Below are positions 27,904-41,788 of a stretch of 64,000 nt of DNA, one piece after another; the stretch's first letter is position 1; each line of letters opens with the position of its first letter. The notes under the pieces are model-generated. The model did not search any database. It had not been told where the DNA came from and saw only the letters and a program-made list of their open reading frames with translations. Source of the stretch: Vitis vinifera (Eukaryota > Streptophyta > Magnoliopsida > Vitales > Vitaceae); assembly GCF_030704535.1 (NCBI RefSeq), contig NC_081809.1:1410501-1474500 (forward strand). Direction: 5' to 3'. A program made the position numbers and the translations under genes.

Positions 27904-28413
27904 TCACAACAAGAGCCTGATAATGGCAGAAGCCACACGAGAGAGGTCACTAACACTCCTATTGAAAGAAGTAATGGGGGAAGCCCCACTGAAGGCTCTC
28001 TCGCAGGAGTCGGCCTCGTTAGCAGCATCATTGGCACCTTGTTCTGCAAATTTGGGATTACCTGTCTTGAGAGCTTCCATGGCTGATGGAATATCAGCCT
28101 TCAAAACTGCATTATCATACAACTCTGCACAACGCCTCAAAGTGGCCTTCGTTTTTGGGTGTGGTGCTGTACCTAACAATTCACTGATTCTGTGGAGGGT
28201 GGCGATTGATTTGGCCTTGATCATATCCACCATCACCATGGCCAAGCCTGCGACGTCTGCGTGAGAGCTTCGTGGGTCTGAGCGCAGAGTCTGCACACAC
28301 AGATCATAGTTGGGTGTCTGCCTGCATGTTTGCTTTACCAAATCTGCGCTGGAGAATTGGATTTGTGTCAGAGAAAGACCCACAACGCAGAGAAGAAACA
28401 CGGATGATCTCAT
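27904..28413 (-). CDS. Invertase/pectinesterase inhibitor (PMEI/CIF superfamily), array copy 1
   Basis: Intronless, 169 aa. Residues 1-23 form a signal peptide ending SSA, so the product is secreted to the wall or vacuole. Four cysteines stand in the family pattern (C30-C39 in the N-terminal hairpin, C95-C137 in the helical bundle). It carries SDPRS (45-49), and the NPKFAEQG segment (119-126) contains the PKF tripeptide through which tobacco CIF contacts the invertase active site. That makes invertase inhibition the better guess over pectin methylesterase inhibition. It is the first of four same-strand copies and closest in sequence to the copy at 31,068-31,577, with which it also shares flanks. 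No damage is visible. Confidence 0.9.
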   Translation of the reverse strand: MRSSVFLLCVVGLSLTQIQFSSADLVKQTCRQTPNYDLCVQTLRSDPRSSHADVAGLAMVMVDMIKAKSIATLHRISELLGTAPHPKTKATLRRCAELYDNAVLKADIPSAMEALKTGNPKFAEQGANDAANEADSCERAFSGASPITSFNRSVSDLSRVASAIIRLLL

Positions 28414-29521
28414 TCTTGAAAAAGATTCTGGAGGAGATTAGAACCAGATGGTTTTGAAGATCGTGATTGGATTGATCCACAGCCTTGGGCGGTTTTTATA
28501 GTGAGTTTGGCCACCCGCTTTAGAATTAATGCACCATGGGTAATTATGATGATTTTTGGCCTTTAGCTGCTGTATTTTTATTTTAAGGAAAATTACTCTT
28601 TGAGTTAAGTGAATTACACTTACACCCATTTGTTGATGGACCAGAATGGAACATAATCACCCTCTTTTTAACCGTTGACGGCCGCTACTTATTGCTACAT
28701 GGTTAGTGACGTACTCATTCAAATTCTTTTCTTTTTTCTTTTTTAAGATAAAAACCCAAAAATGTCTTTTATCACTTGATAAAAATCCCAAGTGTCTTCA
28801 TGGGAAGAAATCTATTACTAAAATTAACCAGACCCAAAAACATCTCCATCGAGACTTTCTTCTCCTATTCAACAAAACATTGCAATTTTTTTTTTTATAT
28901 TTTTTTATGTGATGGGATCTAATTCAAGCTATATTTGACTAAAGAGTACTAATTATTTATCTTGTATAGTTTCAAACTCGTGAAGCCATTTTGAACCCAA
29001 AGCTAATAATATTTAATTGATTTGGTGTGAGTCGTTTCAAATGAAATTAATTTGATTTTGATCTTGATATAAGAGTTTGTTTGGTCATGTAAAAAATGTT
29101 TTTTTGTTTGATACTATAATTCTATAGGACATAACAAAGATGTTGTTATTATACTAGAGATGTTTATGATATCTTATATCAGATATAAAAAAAAGTTTTT
29201 AGCGTTATATAAGTACAAACTCTTTCTAATTTTATAAATAACTTTATGTAGTTGAGAACGGATCATTACGAAAACATAAAGGGTTTGTGAAAAACTTTGT
29301 AGAGAAGAAAAGAAAGTTTGGAAAAGATTGAATAATTTGTCATTACATTTGCATTGTTTTTTATTTAATAACCCCATTTTCTTTTATATTTCCATCTGTA
29401 TATCAAACAAAGATGATGAATAATACTGTAACAATAATGGCTCTTATTTAGAGAATCCGCCGTTTTTATTCAAATTGTGGAAGCAGTCATCTAGAACCCA
29501 TTCATGGGGTCTGACCATGGA
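28414..29521. other. Spacer between inhibitor copies 1 and 2
   Basis: The first 90 bases or so hold the promoter of copy 1. The rest is AT-rich, with no gene. The last 110 bases are the 3' flank of copy 2 and resemble the flanks of copies 1 and 3 (ggaagcagtcatct, cccattcatgg). Confidence 0.6.
28493..28500 (-). promoter_or_regulatory. TATA box of inhibitor copy 1
   Basis: TATAAAAA on the minus strand lies about 80 bp upstream of the start codon. The flanking sequence (tggccacccgcttt, aattaatgca) is shared with the copy starting at 31,577. Confidence 0.65.
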
Positions 29522-30067
29522 TCACGACAAGAGCCCGATAATGGCAGAAGCCACACGAGAGAGGTCACTGACACTCCTATTGAAAGAGGTAATGGGGGAA
29601 GCCCCGCCAAAGGCTCTCTCGCAGGAGTCGGCCTCGTTAGCAGCATCATTAACTCCTTGTTCTGCAAATTTGGGATTACCCTTCTTGAGAGCTTCTATGG
29701 CTGATGGAATATCAGCCTTCAGAACTGCATTATCATACAACTCCCCACAATGGCTCAAGGCCGCCTTCGTTTTCGGGTCTGGGGTCGTGCCCAATAATCC
29801 ATTGATTCTATCGAGGGTGGCGGTCGCTTTGGCCTTGATTGCATCCACCGTCACCAGGGCCAAGCCTGTGACGTCAGCCGTAGAGCTTCGTGGGTCTGCG
29901 CGGAGAGTCTTCACACAGAGATCGTAGTTGGGTGTCTGCTTGCACGTTTGGTCCACCAAATCTGCTCTGGAGAATTGGATTTGTGTCAGAGAAAGACTCA
30001 CGACACAGAGAAGAAACACAGACGATCTCATTCTTAAAGAAGATTCAGGAGGAGATGAGATGGACAT
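29522..30067 (-). CDS. Invertase/pectinesterase inhibitor, array copy 2
   Basis: Same family and layout as its neighbours. The open frame is 181 codons from 30,067, but the internal ATG at 30,031 starts MRSSVFLL exactly like copies 1 and 3 and puts the signal peptide at the N terminus. I prefer that start (169 aa). The four family cysteines, the ADPRS segment and the NPKFAEQG segment with the PKF motif are all present. It differs from copies 1 and 3 in the middle (TVDAIKAKATATLDRINGLL) and lacks their closely matched 3' flank, so it is the older branch of the three. Confidence 0.9.
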   Translation of the reverse strand: MSISSPPESSLRMRSSVFLLCVVSLSLTQIQFSRADLVDQTCKQTPNYDLCVKTLRADPRSSTADVTGLALVTVDAIKAKATATLDRINGLLGTTPDPKTKAALSHCGELYDNAVLKADIPSAIEALKKGNPKFAEQGVNDAANEADSCERAFGGASPITSFNRSVSDLSRVASAIIGLLS

Positions 30068-31067
30068 GGTGATTGGATTGATAACATTTGCCGGATTTTA
30101 TAGTGTGTCTGGCCACTGGCTATAACCATTTTTGGCGAAAATTATGCGTACATGACTTTTGAGTTACTTGCTATTGATAGCTGATTGGCATATGATTAAT
30201 GATGGAAACTTTTATTTTGTTTGATTAACCCAAAAATTGATGTCCTTCAATGACTGGTTATTTCAAAGTAAAATCCACTCATTAAGAAATCATAGATTGA
30301 TTTCATTCCTTTTCTATTTTGAATTAAAATCTGTAATTCCCTCTTACGTCTGATACGGCTGATGACAATTCCCTATATCAACCCTAAAAGTTAGATAAGA
30401 AAGATGTTAGAAACATTCAAGTAGTTTGTATTGTTGAGAGTCCACAAAATCAAATCTCGTTAATTTAGTGTCATTAATGGGTCAACCATAATTTCATTTT
30501 GGACCTTTATTTTGTTTCAAATATGTGTGAGATGTTTGTCAAGTACACTTCTTAGTTCTTACAGTGTGAAATAATGTCATGATGTTAGCTCATATGAGTT
30601 CCTTCCGCCTCTTGACTCGATTTTTCAGTTCAATGAATTCGGGCCTCCTTGTTAAACGGAAATGGGTGAAAACCCTAAGATATATAGAGATCCAAAGTCC
30701 TAATCTGTTCTCTCAAACTAGCAAGTTCCATTTATTGATCAAGTATTCCACTCAATTTTAAGATAATATAACTAAGTCAGTGATGGGTGAGCTATATCCC
30801 TGGTTGAATCTGCTGTTTTCAAGTTTGAACGAAGTTTTTCAGCCCATTTGAGTTGGTACAAAATGTTGATAAAATCGAGAAATTTTGTTCTTTTGAACAT
30901 TGATTTAACAACCCATTCTCCTTTTTAATCTTTTAATCATTATATTTCCCTGTACATCAAATGATGAAAAACAGTGGTTCTTATTTGAGAATCTGCTCTT
31001 TTATTAAAGGTGAGGAAGCAGTCATCTACAGCCCATTCATGGAGTCTTACCAAGGAAGGACTCCAGC
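30068..31067. other. Spacer between inhibitor copies 2 and 3
   Basis: AT-rich, with no gene. From about 30,773 to 31,067 it matches 27,615-27,903 (agttggtacaaaa, ttttgttcttttgaacattg), so the 3' flank was duplicated together with copies 1 and 3. Confidence 0.65.
30095..30102 (-). promoter_or_regulatory. TATA box of inhibitor copy 2
   Basis: TATAAAAT on the minus strand lies about 64 bp upstream of the preferred start codon at 30,031 and 28 bp upstream of the ATG at 30,067. The short distance to 30,067 supports the downstream start, because a transcript starting about 30 bp after the TATA box would begin at or past 30,067. Confidence 0.6.
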
Positions 31068-31577
31068 TCACAACAAGAGCCTGATAATGGCAGAAGCCAC
31101 ACGACAGAGGTCACTGACATACCTATTGAAAGAGGTAATGGGGGATGCCCCACTGAAGGTTCTCTCGCAGGAGTCGGCCTCGTTAGCAGCATCATTAGTA
31201 CCTTCTTCTGCAAATTTGGGAACACCAGTCTTGAGAGCTTGCATCGCTGATGGAAGATCAGCCTTCAAAACTGCATTATCATACAACTCTACACAACGCC
31301 TCAAGGCAGCCTTCGTTTTTGGGTATCGGGTTGTGCCCAGCAATTCGCTGATTCTGTGGAGGGTGGCGATTGTTTTGGCCTTGATCACGTCCACCATCAC
31401 CATGGCCAAACCTGCGACGTCTGCGTGAGAGCTTCGTGGGTCTGAGAGCAGAGTCTTCACACAGAGATCGTAGTTGGGTGTATGCTTGCATGTTTGCTTT
31501 ACCAAATCTGAAGTGGAGAATTCGATTTGGGTCAGAGAAAGACCCATTACACACAGGAGAAACACAGATGATCTCAT
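31068..31577 (-). CDS. Invertase/pectinesterase inhibitor, array copy 3
   Basis: Intronless, 169 aa, with signal peptide MRSSVFLLCVMGLSLTQ and the four family cysteines in the same positions as copy 1. The segment VPKFAEEG keeps the PKF motif. Coding sequence, promoter (tttttata, ccacccgctttt, aattaatgca) and 3' flank all closely match copy 1, so the two are the most recent duplicates in the array. No lesion is seen. The product is presumed to be secreted and to inhibit acid invertase; pectin methylesterase as target cannot be excluded from sequence alone. Confidence 0.9.
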   Translation of the reverse strand: MRSSVFLLCVMGLSLTQIEFSTSDLVKQTCKHTPNYDLCVKTLLSDPRSSHADVAGLAMVMVDVIKAKTIATLHRISELLGTTRYPKTKAALRRCVELYDNAVLKADLPSAMQALKTGVPKFAEEGTNDAANEADSCERTFSGASPITSFNRYVSDLCRVASAIIRLLL

Positions 31578-32365
31578 TCTTGAAGAAGGTTTCAGGAGGA
31601 GATCAGAGGTAGATGATGTGAAGATCGTGATCGATTGGATTGACCCACAGCCTTTGCGGTTTTTATAGTGGATTTGGCCACCCGCTTTTGAATTAATGCA
31701 TCATTGGTAATAATAATTTTTGTTGCTGTATTTATATTTTAAGAAAAATTACACCAACAATCTTGAGGTAAATGATTTACACTTAGACCCTTTGGTTGAT
31801 GAACCCAAGTGTAACATAAGCCCCTCCTTTTACATGTGATTGAGAGAGAGAGACCTTATTAGTAGGAGTGGCCAAGCCAGGTGCCTAGCATTTCTAAAAG
31901 TTAAAATCTTAGACTGATTGATTACCTCTTTATGTCTAATCGATACTGGATGATAAAGAGAAAGTTTAAAGGTAGATAATGATTGATGCCCTTTTTAGGC
32001 CTTATCAAGATTGAATGATAAAGAGGAAGTTTGAAGATAAATACAAATTTTATAAATCCAATCAAATTGCCTTATTTCTTGTTCAAATACGAATGGATAG
32101 TCAAGGTTTATGGAGATGGTTTAGGACATGATTTTTATTGATTACTCTAATTTCTGTTAAGCTTGTGTGCCACATGCTACATCCTTAATCTAACATTAGA
32201 TTAAAAAATCAGAAGTGTTTGCATGGAAAGAAAGCGATTGCTGAGATCATCCAAACCCAAAGATGTCTAAATCGACCCTTCTTCACCTATTCAACAAAAC
32301 ATTGCAATTCTTTTAAGTGATGAGATCCAATTCATTGAAGAAGAAGAGGCAACCGAGCTTATAAG
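31578..32365. other. Spacer between inhibitor copies 3 and 4
   Basis: Holds the promoter of copy 3 and AT-rich DNA. A short local repeat stands out: gataaagagaaagttt near 31,952 and gataaagaggaagtttgaa near 32,014. No gene is seen. Confidence 0.55.
31660..31667 (-). promoter_or_regulatory. TATA box of inhibitor copy 3
   Basis: TATAAAAA on the minus strand, about 83 bp upstream of the start codon, in the same context as copy 1. Confidence 0.65.
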
Positions 32366-32899
32366 TTATAACAACATCCTGACAATGGAGGCAGCCACAA
32401 GAGAAACATGGTGGACCAGTTTGTTCATATTAGTTATGGGCGAAGTCTCAAAATTCTCTTCACATACCCTGGCCTCTAATGAAGCGTCTGTTGCACCTTG
32501 CTCTGCAAACTTGTAATCACCTTTCTCCAAAGCTTCCATGGCTTCCGGGACGTCACCCTTCAGCACTGCGTTATACTTATCAATACAATCAAGCAAGGCG
32601 CCGCGTGTATGCGGGTCTGTGCCGCCCTTCTTCAGCAGCTCATTGATGCGGCTCAGGATGCTGACCGTGTCCCTCTTTATCACATCCACCATAATAATGG
32701 CGAGGCCTCTCACATCAGCTCCGGCACTGCGAGGGTCTGAGAGGAGAGTCTTGAGGCAGAGAGCATGATAAGGGGTCTGCTTGCAGATTTTGTCTACGAA
32801 GGGGGTGTTCTTGTGAGCCAAGACGGAGCAGTGGGTGAATGAGAGAAGAAGGGTATAAAGAAGAAAGATGAATATTGGTAGAGAGATGGAAGTCTTCAT
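32366..32899 (-). CDS. Invertase/pectinesterase inhibitor, array copy 4 (diverged)
   Basis: Intronless, 177 aa. The signal peptide is long and hydrophobic (about residues 1-29, LPIFIFLLYTLLLSF). Family cysteines are C39-C48 and C105-C146, with SDPRS following the first hairpin. The PKF motif of copies 1-3 is changed to YKF (DYKFAEQG), and the central loop has a GG insertion. It is clearly paralogous but older than the other three. Target specificity may differ. The TATA box lies at 32,934-32,941 (minus). Confidence 0.9.
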   Translation of the reverse strand: MKTSISLPIFIFLLYTLLLSFTHCSVLAHKNTPFVDKICKQTPYHALCLKTLLSDPRSAGADVRGLAIIMVDVIKRDTVSILSRINELLKKGGTDPHTRGALLDCIDKYNAVLKGDVPEAMEALEKGDYKFAEQGATDASLEARVCEENFETSPITNMNKLVHHVSLVAASIVRMLL

Positions 32900-32933
32900 C
32901 TTTGGCTGAGTGATGAAGGAGAATTGGTAGAAG

Positions 32934-32941
32934 CTTTTATA
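32934..32941 (-). promoter_or_regulatory. TATA box of inhibitor copy 4
   Basis: TATAAAAG on the minus strand, about 35 bp upstream of the start codon. The leader would be very short. Confidence 0.55.
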
Positions 32942-33321
32942 GCGAGTGTTAATGATGAGCTGAGTTGTTGGTCACATACTCAAAGACGCTGCATTTTTTG
33001 CCCATAACGACAGAAGGGACAGTGGGGCTGCTTGTACGCCATTCAGGTGTTATCGTCTAGAACCTCCTGGCCAAAGGAAAAAGTCTATATAATTTAGTTC
33101 CTAGTTGGATTAACACGACTTGAGATGATCCATACCTAATAGGGAAAAGCTTACTTTGATGGCTGGGTTTCTTGATCTGAATAAAGTCCTCAAGGCCCTT
33201 TGGGTTGATGACGATTTAAAAAAATTTCTTTTGGGGTCTTCAGTAAAGATAGAAGTAGGCAAGCATCATAGCTTCAATGATGTCTCATTCAAAGTTCAAC
33301 GGACGACTCTTAACTCACAAG

Positions 33322-33760: not shown

Positions 33761-34020
33761 TTATATATCATACAAGCCTACACTTATGCTAAAGCCCCAT
33801 GCCATAGTCCACCCCTACCACTTTTATATTCACCTTACTCTTGTGGATAGTCTTTTTAAAACTTGCATGTATACTTCAAGTAAGGTGTTGAGTCTGTTGA
33901 CACAATCTTTTGTAAACTAAGCCTACCATATCATGTATCTTTTGGAATTTATCATATAGTCGCTTTAAAAGCAATGACTCTTACTGTTTGTCTATTATTT
34001 CCTTGTCTCCTGTGAGCATG

Positions 34021-34360
34021 GATTGAAAAATCGGAAAATGTCGCCGATATTTCGGAGAAATATCGGTTATCGGGCGGCATCGAAACGATAATCGGCACCG
34101 ATTATCGATTGACGGAAAAATCGGCCAAAAATCGGCAAAATCGCCGATATATCGGCGAAATATCGGTGGAGGACCGAAAAATCGGCGAAACATCGGCGAG
34201 TGGAGCCACGCGCGGCGAAGACGGCAGAGGACAGCAAAAAATCGGCGATTAATCGGTAAAATCGGCGATAAATCGCCGATTTTTTCAAAAAATCGGCGAT
34301 TTTTTGCCGATAAAATCGCGATAAATCGGCGATTTTTTGAAAAAATCGGCGATTTTTTTG
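34021..34360. repeat. Subterminal repeat array of the hAT element (atcggcgat)
   Basis: More than a dozen copies of aatcggcgat or its complement atcgccgat are packed in 340 bp, many in inverted pairs joined by ttttttgaaaaaa-type linkers. hAT transposases are known to bind short subterminal repeats, so these are the likely binding sites. The strand can fold into several hairpins. The frames that cross this array on the minus strand are by-products of the repeat. Confidence 0.8.
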
Positions 34361-34629
34361 AAGATTCCCTGCTTTTGATCTGACGGCCAATTTTGAATTT
34401 TTGAGGATCTGATGGCCCAGATTTCACCCGTGTATGTAAAGGCCTCCAACGGTCAGATTTGTGATCCAATGGTGGAAAATCAATCTTGACTTTATCCAAG
34501 GGCTATGGAGTGTTTCCAACGGTTATATGAAGATCTAATGGTGAAATTTGAACCAAATTTTGATCCAACGGTTAAAATTAATTTATAACGGCTAGTTTGA
34601 CCATCCAACGGCTAGTTTGACCAAAAAAA

Positions 34630-34645
34630 TTCCTATAAATACCCA
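34630..34645 (+). promoter_or_regulatory. Transposase promoter: CCTATAAATACCC box with CCAACGG repeats upstream
   Basis: A canonical TATAAATA lies about 110 bp before a 5' UTR intron donor (ttaag|gtatgt at 34,755). Upstream, between about 34,440 and 34,620, the motif ccaacgg(t/c) or near variants recurs about seven times. CNGTTR-like cores of this kind (complement of the repeats) are MYB-type binding sites. Confidence 0.55.
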
Positions 34646-34862
34646 CATTCCATTTCATTTCATACATCAAAATTCTTATATGATCTAGCAAAAATTTTTT
34701 ATTTTGAAAATTTGGTGGTGAAGGGGATTAACTCCAAGTCAAAGGCTAATTAAGGTATGTCTTACCTTTTATAAAATTTATTTTATTATGCATAATTAAA
34801 TTTTATTTGTTATATATAGTTTAATTGATATTTTCTAATTCATATGGAAATGTAATTGTAAT

Positions 34863-35200
34863 GTTTATCTATTTCATATATGCATAATTCAATTTTAATT
34901 TTTATTAGTAATGATTCTTATCAATTTCATGAATATGCAAATTTAATTTATTTTAATTTAATTTAATTCTTATCAAAATTTTATTGTAATGTTTATCTAT
35001 TTCATATATGCATAATTCATTTTTAATTTTAATTTTTATTAGTAGTGATTCTTATCAATTTCATGAATATGCAAATTTAATTTATTTTAATTCTTATCAA
35101 AATTTTATTGTAATGTTTATCTATTTCATATATGCATAATTCAATTTTAATTTCAATTTTTATTAGTTCTTATCAATTTCATGCATATTAAATTTCTTAC
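34863..35200 (+). repeat. Three-copy 124-128-bp minisatellite in the transposase 5' UTR intron
   Basis: Copies begin with gtttatctatttcatatatg at 34,863, 34,991 and 35,115; the third is truncated. They lie wholly in the inferred 5' UTR intron (34,755-35,255), whose acceptor is three bases before the ATG. Confidence 0.8.
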
Positions 35201-35258
35201 ATGTTTTATCTTTAATAATTTTAAATTTGATATTAGTTTCATAATTCAATTTTAGAAA

Positions 35259-38200
35259 ATGGCTAGTGAAAGCGGTACCATGGGTCGAGATCCTTGTTGG
35301 AAATATTGTACACCTATGGAAGGGAACAAAAATGGAACAATATGCAATTACTGTGGGTTGGCAATAAAGAGTGGTGGGATTACTCGTTTTAAATTTCACC
35401 TATCACATACAGACCCTAATTCAAATACAAAAAAGTGTCCTAACGTGCCTCCAGAAGTGAAACAAGAAATAAGACGACTTATAGAGCAAAGAAATAAGGC
35501 AAAAGCGAAGAAAGCTGTTGATATAGAAGAGATTCGAGCAGAACTGCGAGACACAATGGGAAGAAGACATAGGCATTTAATTGATGAGGACGATGAGGAG
35601 AACCTTGGTGGTGATGGTGGTGGTGATGATGGTGGTGGTGGTGGTGGTGGTGATGATGATGATGATGGAGATGATGATGTGTATATGTATCCGGCTGACA
35701 TGCACCCTGATGAGCGACATGCTTATAGAGAGGCAGTTCGAGCATCAAAAGCTGCTGAATGGAATCGACAACAACAAGAACATTTTATAAAAGGCAAAAG
35801 AAAAACAGGTATAATATTAATTTGAATTATTACTGTTTCTTATCAACTTTATCAATAATATTAAATTAACATATATGTTTAATTTTAATAATTATAATAG
35901 GCGAGTCTTCACATCCAACCAATCCAACAACAAGGCAAATGCGAAAATCGCAAAGTGTTCGATATTCAGATGCATCACTGCCTGATGCACCCTCATTGTA
36001 CAAATCTTCAGCAGCAAGACAGAAAACTGTAAAAAATCTTTTCAAAGGTGGTGCCATCAAGGAAACCATGGGACGTTTGATCAGTAAGTTCTTCATATAT
36101 GAGAGTGTTCCGCCAAGTAAAGCAGACTCTCACCACTTCAAGAACATGATTGTTGGTGCACAACAAGCAGGTAATTACTATAATTTTAAAAGTTGTATTT
36201 ATTTGAACAATATCATTACTATTTATATAGTATGATTGACACAAATGTTCTTATATGTTTTAATTATATATGGATGGTAGGTATGGGTATAGAACCGCCG
36301 TCTCCTTATGAAATCAAACACAAGTATTTGGATATGGAGTACAAAGACATGGAAGCTTATGTCAATATTCAAAGAGAAAAGTGGAAGACTTATGGATGCA
36401 CGATTATGTCTGACGGATGGACTGGGCCCACGAAATTAAGCATAATTAATTTCATGGTATATTCAAAAGGTAGCACAATCTTCCTCAAATCCGTTGATGC
36501 ATCAAATAATATAAAGGACAACAAATACATATATGGTTTGTTGAAGGATGTGATCAAGGAAGTTGGCAAACAAAATGTGGTCCAAATAGTTACAGATAAT
36601 GGGTCGGCATTCGTGAAGGCGGGGAAGTTGTTAATGAAGAAATACAATCTTTATTGGACTCCGTGTGCAGCACATTGCATCGACTTAATGTTCGAAGACA
36701 TCGGTAAAAGGACGAGTGTTGCAGATCTGATTACAAAGGCTCGAAAGATAACCAACTTCATTTATAACCATAGTTGGTTGCTTGCACAGATGCGGAAGGT
36801 GTGTGGTGGAGACATAGTTCGTCCTGGAGCAACAAGATTTGCAACCAATTATATAGCCCTTGACAGTCTTTTGAAAAAGAAAGCAAACTTGAAGAAAGTG
36901 TTTATCAGTGATGAATGGGCACAACACAACTTAAGTCGCACATTAATCGGCAAAGAGGTTGAATCACTTATGTTTGACCATGCGTACTGGGAAAGAGTGG
37001 GAAAGTTAGTGTCAATATATGAGGCGCTATACACAGTTCTTCGCATTGTCGATTCAGAAGTTGTTCCTACAATGCCATTTGTGTACGAATTGATTCGAGT
37101 TATGAAAGAGAACCTCATTCGACTTAATGCTAAAGAATGGGTGTTAGAAATAATTGCAGATCGTTGGGATAGAACTCTTAAACATCCTCTTCATGCAGCA
37201 GGTAAGTATTATTCATCTTTGAAATTTATTGGTATTTAATATGTTTCTTTCATAAAATTCTAATTTTACATTTCTACTTTACTATTGTAGCATTCTTTCT
37301 TAATCCAAGATTTCAATATAAACGTGGAGTTGGTACTGATCCTGATCTACTTCAAGCTGTTCATGAAGTCTTTGCGAAATTAGATCCTACATCAGAAGGT
37401 CTTAGTCAATTTGGAAATGAGGTAAATTATTAGAGTTATAATATAAATTAAATAATTGAATTTCATTTACTCAACTTTTTCACTTTCAATTATTTAATAT
37501 GTAGATTATACTATTCCGAGATGCAAAAAGAGGATTCGGTGATCGAGCAGCGATTGCTTCGAGGTCAGAAATGGTTCCCGGTGAGTATTATTTGTGAAAT
37601 AATAATTCATTTCATTAGCATATTATTGTAACTTTCCAATATAAGTATTGATATCATTTATTTGGTTGTAGCTGAATGGTGGTTCATGTATGGACATCAC
37701 GCTCCTACATTAAGAAGGTTGGCCATCAAGGTTTTATCGCAAACTGCATCATCTTCAGCTTGTGAGAGAAATTGGAGCACGTTTGCCTTAATTCATACAA
37801 AACAAAGAAATCGGCTTGCTTACCCGATGCTCCAACAATTAGTTTTCTGTTATTATAACATGAAACTAAAGATACGTGACATGGAAGCAGAACAAGACAA
37901 AGTTGCAGAGAAAGATTACCTCGATTTACTTGACATTGCAACTGAGGTTGGTGAAGAAGAAGATAACCAATTGTTTCAATGGGTTAGACCTCTTCATCTA
38001 GATGATGAAGATGGAAATCCCGACCCACGAATTGCCGCACATGTCCGAGAAGCAGGTGTTGATGTTGATCGAGTGTTATCCGAAGAAGTTCATACTGATA
38101 GTTTCAGCCAAGACACGAGAGATTCATTTCAACAAGGAATTTCTCAGCCGGCAGTCACTTCTCGACCTTCTTTTGACTCCACGAGTGTTGAACATAGTAG

Positions 38201-38891
38201 TAGACCTAGTGCTACTGGTACTTCTGCTTCCGGTTATGATGGTTCAAGAGGAGAGGGGACCAATGATGGTAGCGACCCTGGAAATGATGAAGGGGATGTT
38301 AGACAACAACAACAAAGTGGACAACCATTGGCATTTACTTGTGAAGATGATTTCACACATTGTACTCAAGATGAAGACCACGGCTCTAGAAGAGCCGGTC
38401 CAGGTGTTGGAGCCATTGGAAAGCCATATAGAGGAAGACAACGAAGGATGATGCCATACAACGAGGACTCATTGTCGGCCAGTTTTGAGTCGATGAGTGT
38501 AGAGACTCAATTCAGTGATTCATCAAACGAAGCCAACATTTATGCCCCTTATGCAATGAGTTATGGTCAGCCTCCTCAAAATCTTTCAAGTTCCACTGAT
38601 GAAGAGTATGAAAGGTATAACTATCCTTCTTCCACACAAATGCCATACTACCTTCCACATCAGCTGCAACAACAAGGATTTCAAACGAGCACATGGGAAA
38701 ACCCTGGATTTCCTATCCATGGACAAGTTGTTGGTAGGACTCAAGAAATTTATGCATGGCATGTTCGTACATACAATCAATACTATCGAAACTCCATGTC
38801 CTGGTATGAATATTGTCTTCAACAAGATGGGCTCCCTTCATCTAACAATAACAATATGATGGAACCACATCGATCTTCATTTTGGTATTAA
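35259..38891 (+). CDS. hAT transposase: BED finger, DUF659-type core and hAT dimerisation domain
   Basis: Exons are 35259-35808, 35901-36170, 36281-37201, 37291-37421, 37505-37580 and 37672-38891, all joining in phase to 1,055 aa. An N-terminal BED-type zinc finger has W14, C29, C32, H47 and H50. It is followed by a basic region and a Gly/Asp tract (about 119-140). The RNase-H-like core shows SDGW with Asp about 318 and TDNGS with Asp about 379, then TPCAAHCIDL. The C-terminal dimerisation segment contains ACERNWS, whose Glu (about 681) fits the third catalytic residue. About 340 further residues, hydrophilic and rich in Ser, Asp, Gln and Tyr, extend beyond the usual end of such transposases. 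It binds the element ends and moves them by cut-and-paste in the nucleus. All catalytic residues are present. Confidence 0.92.
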
Positions 38892-40182
38892 GGACCATTG
38901 CAATGTCATATGTATTATGTTTATGTGTAAATTGTTTTCATTTAATGAAATCAAATATTTCTTAACTCAATTCTAACTTTCTAAGTGTACAATTCCAAAT
39001 TTCATATTTTTTATTCTTCAAATCCAAGTATCGTAAACTATTTACCGATATTTTTTTCTTTGACCATATTTATGTCAATTACACTTATAAAATAACTTTA
39101 ACATGCATATTCTTGCTTATTTTATCATTCTTTGGCTTTTTTTAAGCATTCCCATCAATTTTGGATAATTTTTGTCTCACCGATATTTGATGAAAAATAT
39201 CCACCGATATTTCTCCGATATTTCCGATATATCCGTAAAATCCAAGTACCGATATATCCGTGTTTACCGATATTTCAATCCTTGCCTGTGAGTGAATACT
39301 AGTCATGCTTATTTTTAGTACTCCTCCAATCCCCTTGTTGGTGAGTTTTACCATCTACTATTAAGTCTAATAATTTCTTGCTCTATCACGGTGTCATAGT
39401 TGTGATGAATTTTTGTCAAGATTCTCCCATTCGAAGATCATCCTTAATTCACCCATTTAGCCTTTCTTTCAATTTTCATAGATGACGTTTTTTTCTCAGT
39501 CTAAGATTCTATCTATTGTCTTTAGATGAAAATAGTATGAGTGTCAGAACCCCTTAGCTATCTCAACCATTGGGACTTCGACGGTCAAGTTAGTCGTTGA
39601 TTTCTGTACTCATTTTTTCTTACCTTCCTATCGAGGATACTTTCTTTTTATAAACCCATTTAACTAAAATTCATTAAAAATCATTGAATTTATTTATTAA
39701 AAGAGACTTGACTAATCACTAAATATGGTAAGTGAATTTTAAATTTTATATTTTTATCCTTTCTATAAAATAAAGATTTTTAAATGATTTTATACTAAAA
39801 TGTGATTTTTTAAGTCAAATTTTTATTATTAGTTCCATTCTATAAAAAAATTAAAATTCTAAAAAAAAAGGACTATTTAAGTTGATTTATTAGATGATAA
39901 ATCAAAGTTTATTTTCAATTGATTTATCTTGAAGTTCAATTTATTTTAAAATAAATGTTTAACATAATAATATTAGAATTCTAAATAAACTATACTTAAT
40001 TTATTTATAAGATTTAATTAATTTTTATTAAAGGGTTAATAAAAAAAATTAAATTAGAATTGTATTTCTTTAAATCATTATGATAAATAAAATAAAAATG
40101 ATGATGAAATATTTTCTTTATATAATGAAAATAAAAAATATTTTCTAAATAAAATAAACTAGACTACAAAAAAATGTCTCTT

Positions 40183-41229: not shown

Positions 41230-41314
41230 CAACACCCCAAAACCTCAAGCATCATAAAACAAACAGCTGTGCCAATTCAGCTGTGCCAATTCTCCTTCCA
41301 TATATCCTTCAACC

Positions 41315-41788
41315 ATGAAGATACTAATGATCTCTCTTTCATGGCCCTTTCTTCTTCTTCTTTTTCTCCTCCCCACAATCCCCCAGTCCTCTGCTGCTAT
41401 GCAGAACCCTCCAATTTCCAAAGACTCCAATACAGATGTCAAAGATCTAGCCCACTCTGCCCTTGAGCTGGCCTTGGCGAAGGCTAACGAAACTCTAGTG
41501 CACGTTGGAGAGCTGTTCAAGAACACCACCGACCCTGTGCTGTACAGATACTATGGCACATGCATTGATGAATATCAGGGAACTGTGACGAGGCATCTGC
41601 CGGGAGCCATCAGTGCTTTGGAGTCTAACAACTACGAAACGTCCAAACAAGAGGCGGGCTCTGCTGCCACCAGTGCAGATACGTGCGAGCAGCAATTCGT
41701 TCCTGAGAAATCACCCATGTCTGATGAGAATGCGGTGGTGCATGGACTGTCGGTTGTGGCATCAAATATTGTTGAGTTATTGGGTTGA
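41315..41788 (+). CDS. Diverged invertase/pectinesterase-inhibitor-like protein lacking the first hairpin
   Basis: Intronless, 157 aa. The signal peptide is about residues 1-28 (FLLLLFLLPTIPQSSAA). The bundle is recognisable by GTCIDEYQGTV (C83), LPGAISALESNNYETS and ADTCEQQF (C124), the second family disulfide. The N-terminal hairpin with the first cysteine pair is absent: after the signal peptide the sequence enters directly at a segment corresponding to SDPRS...ADVKGLA of relatives. The PKF motif is also replaced. It lies opposite in strand to the 27.9-32.9 kb array, from which the hAT element and AT-rich DNA now separate it. The frame is intact, and the gene may have a new target or none. 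Confidence 0.85.
   Translation: MKILMISLSWPFLLLLFLLPTIPQSSAAMQNPPISKDSNTDVKDLAHSALELALAKANETLVHVGELFKNTTDPVLYRYYGTCIDEYQGTVTRHLPGAISALESNNYETSKQEAGSAATSADTCEQQFVPEKSPMSDENAVVHGLSVVASNIVELLG

Follow-up and report, generated by a model that had tools for sequence, protein, structure and literature searches.

A grapevine transposon of the hAT superfamily, very probably autonomous and recently mobile, and a likely member of Hatvine-1

The transposon described here lies in a window of 64,000 nucleotides from Vitis vinifera (NCBI RefSeq assembly GCF_030704535.1, contig NC_081809.1, positions 1,410,501 to 1,474,500 of the forward strand). It is very probably an autonomous DNA transposon of the hAT superfamily that has moved recently, and Hatvine-1 is the published family to which it most likely belongs; an intact transposase gene and intact ends are combined in this one copy. 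This explanation is preferred because the target-site duplications of the family are perfect and differ from one another, and because there are eight near-identical copies, few private substitutions and open frames. It is further favoured by a related empty site for the sister copy L004, a pN/pS of 0.27 in three other copies, a match to the Hermes transposase and the confinement of the motif CCGATA to the ends of the element. The first-pass annotation of this DNA had proposed possible activity, which is supported by the near-identical copies, the intact frames and the exact related empty site of L004.

Ends of the element

The element is a complete hAT copy of 5,268 bp (window positions 34017-39284). 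Its ends are marked by the following features:

34009..34016, no strand, left target-site duplication CCTGTGAG, a perfect match to the right copy
34017..34034, plus strand, 5' terminal inverted repeat of 18 bp, with two mismatches to the 3' repeat
34035..34234, plus strand, 5' subterminal region holding the motifs CCGATA and ATCGGCGA, putative binding repeats for the transposase (k-mer counts)
34235..34359, plus strand, palindromic subterminal array, 125 bp in the window copy, variable between copies, with a predicted long-hairpin fold
39180..39266, plus strand, 3' subterminal CCGATA repeats (k-mer counts)
39267..39284, plus strand, 3' terminal inverted repeat of 18 bp, pairing with the 5' repeat
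39285..39292, no strand, right target-site duplication CCTGTGAG, a perfect match to the left copy

The window copy begins with CA and ends with TG, so that short terminal inverted repeats starting with CA, a trait of the hAT superfamily, are present. A comparison of its first 18 bases with the reverse complement of its last 18 gave two differences, the same count as annotated earlier, and the perfect 8-bp duplication claimed at that stage was found at both flanks. Among 48 loci examined, seven yielded no pair of ends. Perfect 8-bp duplications flank 39 of the remaining 41 elements, the other two agree at 7 of 8 bases, and all 41 duplications are different from one another; they are therefore not due to chance. 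CCGATA, or its reverse complement TATCGG, is confined to the end regions, with seven occurrences in the outermost 345 bp on the 5' side and seven in the outermost 250 bp on the 3' side. It is common to both ends, whereas ATCGGCGA is found near the 5' end only.

Transposase gene and protein

The transposase gene, with its candidate catalytic codons, was laid out as follows:

35259..35808, plus strand, exon 1, with zf-BED at residues 12-50 and an acidic Gly/Asp microsatellite
35901..36170, plus strand, exon 2 (from exon joining)
36281..37201, plus strand, exon 3, with DUF659 at residues 280-430 and a CAAH motif
36412-36414 and 36595-36597, plus strand, candidate catalytic D codons in exon 3
37291..37421, plus strand, exon 4 (from exon joining)
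37505..37580, plus strand, exon 5, at the end of which the dimerisation region starts
37672..38891, plus strand, exon 6, with most of the dimerisation region (residues 645-713) and the stop codon
37764-37766, plus strand, candidate catalytic E codon in exon 6

The six-exon gene of the first-pass annotation was confirmed: the phases join to 1,055 codons with no internal stop, across GT-AG introns of 83-110 bp. An alternative intron 5, which gives 1,065 codons and was the sole alternative among the splice sites tried by script, was set aside because its splice context looked weaker.

A BED zinc finger is common in the hAT superfamily, although not universal. In the comparison with Pfam, zf-BED (PF02892) scored 20.6 bits, exactly equal to its cut-off of 20.6, DUF659 scored 178.8 bits and Dimer_Tnp_hAT (PF05699) 50.6 bits against a cut-off of 21.4. 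Residues 646-709, which include the candidate catalytic E, match Hermes with an E value of 2e-05. The second candidate D falls inside a Hermes alignment below threshold (-0.5 bits), and the first, which we take to be catalytic from its hAT motif, lies outside both Hermes alignments. The earlier claim of a BED finger, D-D-E residues and a dimerisation segment stands for the finger (at the cut-off), for the dimerisation region and, through a significant match, for the E; the two D residues are candidates.

Sister copies, age and empty sites

Near-identical copies, which had been named as a sign of activity, were found. Recent transposition is evident in this genome: the window copy and seven others, on eight contigs in all, are separated from one another by 1 to 11 aligned bases over about 5.2 kb (pairwise divergence 0.02-0.21%), and every one of them is flanked by a perfect duplication of its own. 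Outside the palindromic array, where about 5,140 bp were compared in each of the eight, these young copies carry seven private substitutions in total. With substitution rates between 2.5e-9 and 1e-8 per site per year, this count corresponds to an age of about 17,000-68,000 years, and the Poisson limits extend from about 7,000 to 140,000. Four of the eight (the window copy, L003, L007 and L009) carry none. The recent insertion proposed for the window copy is upheld by this absence of private substitutions against seven near-identical sisters.

Both ends were identified for 22 long copies. The frame is open in 12, of which 11 also keep every splice site, and five, among them the window copy, encode an identical protein. 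Measured against the window copy, pN/pS is 0.27 for each of L008, L010 and L014, and nine decayed copies give 0.46-0.69; the counts behind these values are small and non-independent. Two copies weigh against the autonomous, mobile explanation: L008, which is young with an open frame, has lost one splice donor, and the intact L018 resembles the decayed copies with a pN/pS of 0.69.

Segmental duplication or duplication in the assembly, rather than transposition, is an extremely improbable source of the near-identical copies, and nothing was found in its favour. Segmental duplication was rejected because flanks, contigs and duplications differ between the copies. Moreover, when the flanks of L004 are joined across one duplication, they match another place in the genome at 100% over 260 bases; L004 lies within a LINE-like repeat that encodes a reverse transcriptase, and the unoccupied site is seen in other copies of this repeat. 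Within this assembly, an exact related empty site was found for this sister but none for the window copy: its flanks, once joined, match no place other than themselves, which also speaks against a duplicated segment.

Family assignment and proposed mechanism

Judged by its size and the lengths of its ends, the element probably belongs to Hatvine-1 (Repbase VIHAT1). In Table 2 of Benjak et al. 2008, Hatvine-1 is about 5.5 kb long, with 18-bp terminal repeats, 8-bp duplications and a mix of intact and deleted copies (PMC2528002), all as here except for the length, which is 5,268 bp; the comparison is one of descriptions, not of sequences. The same table gives 7 TEs with potentially functional ORFs, whereas 12 of 22 long copies have an open frame here. 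Hatvine-10 is also 5.5 kb long, but its repeats are of 11 bp (PMC2528002).

In Ac/Ds, Tam3 and Tol2, too, passengers carry the same ends as an autonomous element, and repeats lie near the ends; the present element differs in its DUF659-type transposase. By analogy with Hermes, an insect element, the following mechanism can be proposed. A spliced mRNA would give rise to a BED/DUF659/hAT-dimerisation transposase, the BED fingers of which may grip the subterminal repeats, CCGATA on both sides and ATCGGCGA near the 5' end. The D-D-E site would then cut the element ends, and the excised element would join staggered target DNA, which would generate the 8-bp duplications. Hermes shares the BED finger, a dimerisation region with the catalytic E, and repeats near the ends that include quasi-palindromes (PMC10368747; PDB 6dww, 8edg). 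Its repeat motif is AAGT/AAGC instead (PMC10368747), and the grapevine transposase has a C-terminal extension of about 340 residues past the dimerisation region, encoded in exon 6.

Possible present-day activity

Vines are multiplied by cuttings, so that an intact hAT element able to move might give rise to bud-sport variation. The insertion Hatvine1-rrm, for which the original paper is reportedly Fernandez 2010, bears a name that suggests the same family as the window element. According to PMC4243098, which cites it, this somatic insertion lies in the VvTFL1A promoter of RRM, a mutant of Carignan.

It is a real possibility, somewhat short of an even chance, that the family had a burst of movement, dating back tens of thousands of years at most, and has since been silenced by DNA methylation, a reading that shares its past with the preferred one and differs in the present. 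The private substitutions outside the array, seven in number, are without exception C-to-T or G-to-A changes, as expected if the copies were methylated and silenced. In published long-read transcripts from grapevine callus, only hAT-7 loci, among terminal-repeat transposons, showed more than 90% coverage of the transposase ORF (PMC9097378). Of the somatic insertions and deletions in a study of clones, less than 3% were due to DNA transposons and LINEs combined (PMC13352677); these two reports, like the substitution pattern, count against the autonomous, mobile explanation. Silencing, however, is at odds with the four young copies free of private substitutions outside the array, the identical protein from five copies, the 9 EST hits for Hatvine-1, the family of probable membership (PMC2528002), and the somatic Carignan mutant caused by Hatvine1-rrm (PMC4243098). 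In the accessible parts of the literature on grapevine clones, nothing specific to the family of the window element was found. For a test of whether the family is still mobile, the window copy and its sisters would be good material to begin with.

Variation of the palindromic array

The variation of the array among near-identical copies is the one unusual trait of an otherwise known kind of element. The array takes seven different sequences across the eight young copies, 219-343 bp inside the 5' end, and indels are absent from the non-repetitive remainder of these copies. In the window copy, the stretch 34234-34372 is predicted to fold into a hairpin (MFE -50.4 kcal/mol, z -8.23). A coding trinucleotide repeat and one AT-rich repeat also differ between copies.

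These array differences are likely to be ordinary replication slippage at a hairpin-forming minisatellite, independent of transposition. The shortened and lengthened forms, judged by eye, start and stop in common repeat units, the two other repeats vary too, and about one change per lineage is compatible with minisatellite change rates; yet a change coupled to repair would have the same appearance. It is rather unlikely, although worth considering, that the array is rewritten at nearly each move by repair slippage or template switching, which would provide almost every new copy with new candidate BED-finger sites. If so, the array length would be a heritable mobility dial and a molecular tag for single transposition events. 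Among the titles and abstract openings of the matches listed in a literature search on repeat or hairpin changes near hAT ends, nothing concerned copy-to-copy change of such an array. Because the array varies between copies that are otherwise nearly identical, it can serve as a natural test for a remodelling of hAT ends by transposition itself.

Short elements with the same ends

Short copies sharing the ends, another anticipated sign of activity, are present with perfect duplications, and some have no substitutions between them. Their shared ends suggest that the window transposase may move them in trans. Another hAT transposase might instead move these elements, chiefly a family of 1,510 bp, although this seems doubtful. 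This family resembles the 5' end at about 94% over 179 bp, but the 3' end at only about 79% over 357 bp. Against another transposase, the terminal 18-mers are identical to those of the window copy in six of the seven 1,510-bp copies retrieved, the seventh, L041, having a single change, and among the 22 long copies none is a better overall match to the 3' end of the 1,510-bp family than the intact L014, with 79.6% over 357 bp.

Structure and Coding Capacity

The first-pass annotation had described an apparently intact hAT transposon, potentially autonomous and recently inserted. This finding is sound, and its interpretation is well supported. The features are as follows, in window coordinates or transposase residues.

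34009-34016 and 39285-39292: target-site duplications CCTGTGAG, on both flanks of the element
34017-39284: hAT element, defined by its ends and flanking duplications
34235-34359 (element positions 219-343): palindromic array, 38-bp arms with 92% complementarity
Residues 12-50: zf-BED (Pfam), with a score exactly equal to the cut-off
Residues 280-430: DUF659 (Pfam)
Residues 645-713: Dimer_Tnp_hAT (Pfam)

The perfect 8-bp duplications, the 18-bp terminal repeats with two mismatches and the six-exon transposase of 1,055 codons were all found as described, with every intron GT-AG and the frame open; among the splice sites tried, one alternative for intron 5 also leaves the frame open. The domains and D-D-E residues attributed to the protein were borne out in part. 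Both zf-BED and Dimer_Tnp_hAT were recovered, and Hermes chains were the top matches among solved structures (E 2e-05, residues 646-709), with the candidate catalytic E681 aligned within this match. The stretch surrounding D379, the candidate second D, aligns with Hermes below significance, and D318 is presumably the first catalytic D, assigned from hAT motifs; these three residue numbers were counted by hand. About 340 further residues lie C-terminal to the dimerisation region. In exon 1, a microsatellite of Gly/Asp trinucleotides (window 35606-35679) varies in length among the sister copies while keeping the reading frame.

Relation to Published Families

The element is of a known kind and is probably a member of the published family Hatvine-1. 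According to Benjak et al. 2008 (PMC2528002), Hatvine-1 is 5.5 kb long with 18-bp repeats and 8-bp duplications, has 125 copies with >90% of the transposase, seven of them potentially functional, and has nine EST hits; of eleven cut-and-paste insertions in seven cultivars, all but one were polymorphic. PMC4243098 cites Hatvine1-rrm as having caused the Carignan RRM mutant. In published callus long reads, >90% coverage of the transposase ORF is given, among terminal-repeat transposons, for hAT-7 loci only (PMC9097378), which counts against present-day activity of this family.

Family Copies and Their Age

Of the 2,254 candidates in the initial genome search, 28 were scored, and copy counts are therefore lower bounds. 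These 28 and another 20, picked from two end-sequence searches that yielded more than 20 matches, made up the 48 loci examined. Both ends lay at most 7 kb apart in 41 loci, and no end pair within 7 kb was found at the remaining seven (L013, L021 and L024 to L028). With the pair giving the best duplication kept wherever several were possible, 39 of the 41 paired elements had perfect 8-bp duplications and two matched at 7 of 8 positions; the duplication sequence was unique to each of the 41. Position 3 was T in 32 of these duplications (p 7e-10), position 6 was A in 24 and position 1 was G in 19, a bias shifted by one from nTnnnnAn, the target consensus of Ac and Hermes. About 640 bp past the 5' end of sister L002, a 67-bp stretch in opposite orientation (G000:C6:21121051-21121117) is 88% like the family 3' end.

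The near-identical copies that had been named as support for activity were found, and they uphold recent insertion: eight young copies (the window copy, L002 to L007 and L009), one on each of eight contigs, differ pairwise by 0.02 to 0.21%. Outside the array they carry seven private substitutions, polarised with L008, L010 and L014, every one C to T or G to A. L005 carries three of these, L002 two, and L004 and L006 one apiece; no private substitution lies outside the array in the window copy, L003, L007 or L009. The other ungapped variable sites comprise three common to two or three copies and two inside the array. Assumed rates of 1e-8 to 2.5e-9 per site per year give a mean age of some 17,000 to 68,000 years, and the Poisson limits span about 7,000 to 140,000 years. 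Methylated cytosines mutate faster, and the true age may therefore be lower.

Among the paired elements, 22 of 41 exceed 4.4 kb, and 12 of these have an open frame (L001 to L010, L014 and L018), although intron 5 of L008 begins with AT, not GT. An identical protein is encoded by five (the window copy, L002, L006, L007 and L009). Against the window copy, pN/pS is 0.27 for L008, L010 and L014, 0.46 to 0.69 in nine decayed copies and also 0.69 in the intact L018, a pattern that offers a hint, no more, of selection for function.

The Palindromic Array

The main fresh point of the analysis is the array, which is predicted to form a long hairpin (z -8.23) and consists mostly of ATCGGCGA units. Counted together with its complement, this 8-mer is present 11 times in the element, always within 345 bp of the 5' end. 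The eight young copies hold seven array sequences, with lengths of 125, 125, 125, 145, 165, 94, 72 and 61 bp. One sequence is common to the window copy and L002; the array of L003, likewise 125 bp long, differs from it in two palindrome spacers. Outside the array, indels among these copies are confined to a 5' AT-rich repeat and the exon 1 microsatellite. Scanned in 258 overlapping 120-bp segments, the eight copies showed a single sequence in 199; the nine segments with 5 to 7 sequences all overlapped the array. Among the short passenger elements, L029 and L035 have the same array and 33 bp are missing from that of L030; L035 also lacks 11 bp of a tandem repeat close to the 3' end.

The array may be rewritten when the element moves, or it may change by slippage alone; the single assembly is compatible with both readings. 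According to PMC10368747, the BED fingers of the Hermes transposase bind to quasi-palindromic repeats close to the Hermes ends.

Insertion Sites and Genomic Setting

The host is very probably grapevine, and its contig numbers seem to correspond to chromosome numbers: the forward primer of the grapevine microsatellite VVS2, a marker of linkage group 11, has a single match in the assembly, on contig C11. The joined flanks of the window copy, searched in its own assembly, match only themselves, and therefore no empty site is visible for it. The flanks of sister L004, joined over one duplication, match a related unoccupied site elsewhere at 100% over 260 bases, with 24 more full-length matches at 87-100% and additional places at about 80%; the host sequence is a LINE-like repeat in which Pfam finds a reverse transcriptase domain (PF00078, 134.7 bits). 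L037, a 1,510-bp passenger (G000:C18:29615555-29617064), splits a protein-kinase frame, with PF00069 on its right flank, and two uninterrupted neighbours on the same contig match the host frame at 98% and 96% over 228 of 260 bases. The short element L030 is inserted in a second reverse-transcriptase repeat (PF13966), whose uninterrupted relatives reach at most 84%.

The window copy is surrounded by a pectin methylesterase/invertase inhibitor cluster (window 27904-32971, minus strand, and 41258-41788, plus strand). All three reading frames given to Pfam from this cluster contain PF04043. The element lies upstream of the cluster gene at 32369-32902 (minus strand), about 1.1 kb from its start, and could affect its promoter.

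Passenger Elements

Short copies with the same ends, also anticipated in the annotation, were found as a ~1.2-kb family, a 1,510-bp family and L031, a deletion form of 2,412 bp with matches of 98.2% and 99.5%. The ~1.2-kb passengers (10 copies fetched) have up to 342 bp in common with the 5' end of the element and about 208 bp with the 3' end, of which 161 bp matched in L042. L029, L030 and L035 differ by indels, with zero substitutions among them. The 1,510-bp family is represented in near-full-length form at 25 places (97-100%), with the top score tied in three, and L036 is identical to L037. Judged from the shared ends, the passengers are likely to be mobilised by the transposase of the window copy.

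Three equal-scoring 1,510-bp relatives (G000:C5:2125731, 2233604 and 2341484) are spaced at about 107.9 kb, which points to a segment of some 108 kb having been triplicated in tandem on C5. Two 1.2-kb relatives of equal length and the same orientation (G000:C4:7323776 and 7399370) lie 75.6 kb apart, perhaps through another segmental duplication. The middle of the 1.2-kb passengers (L029 positions 376-968) has many separate matches at 85-93% and seems to derive from another repeat.
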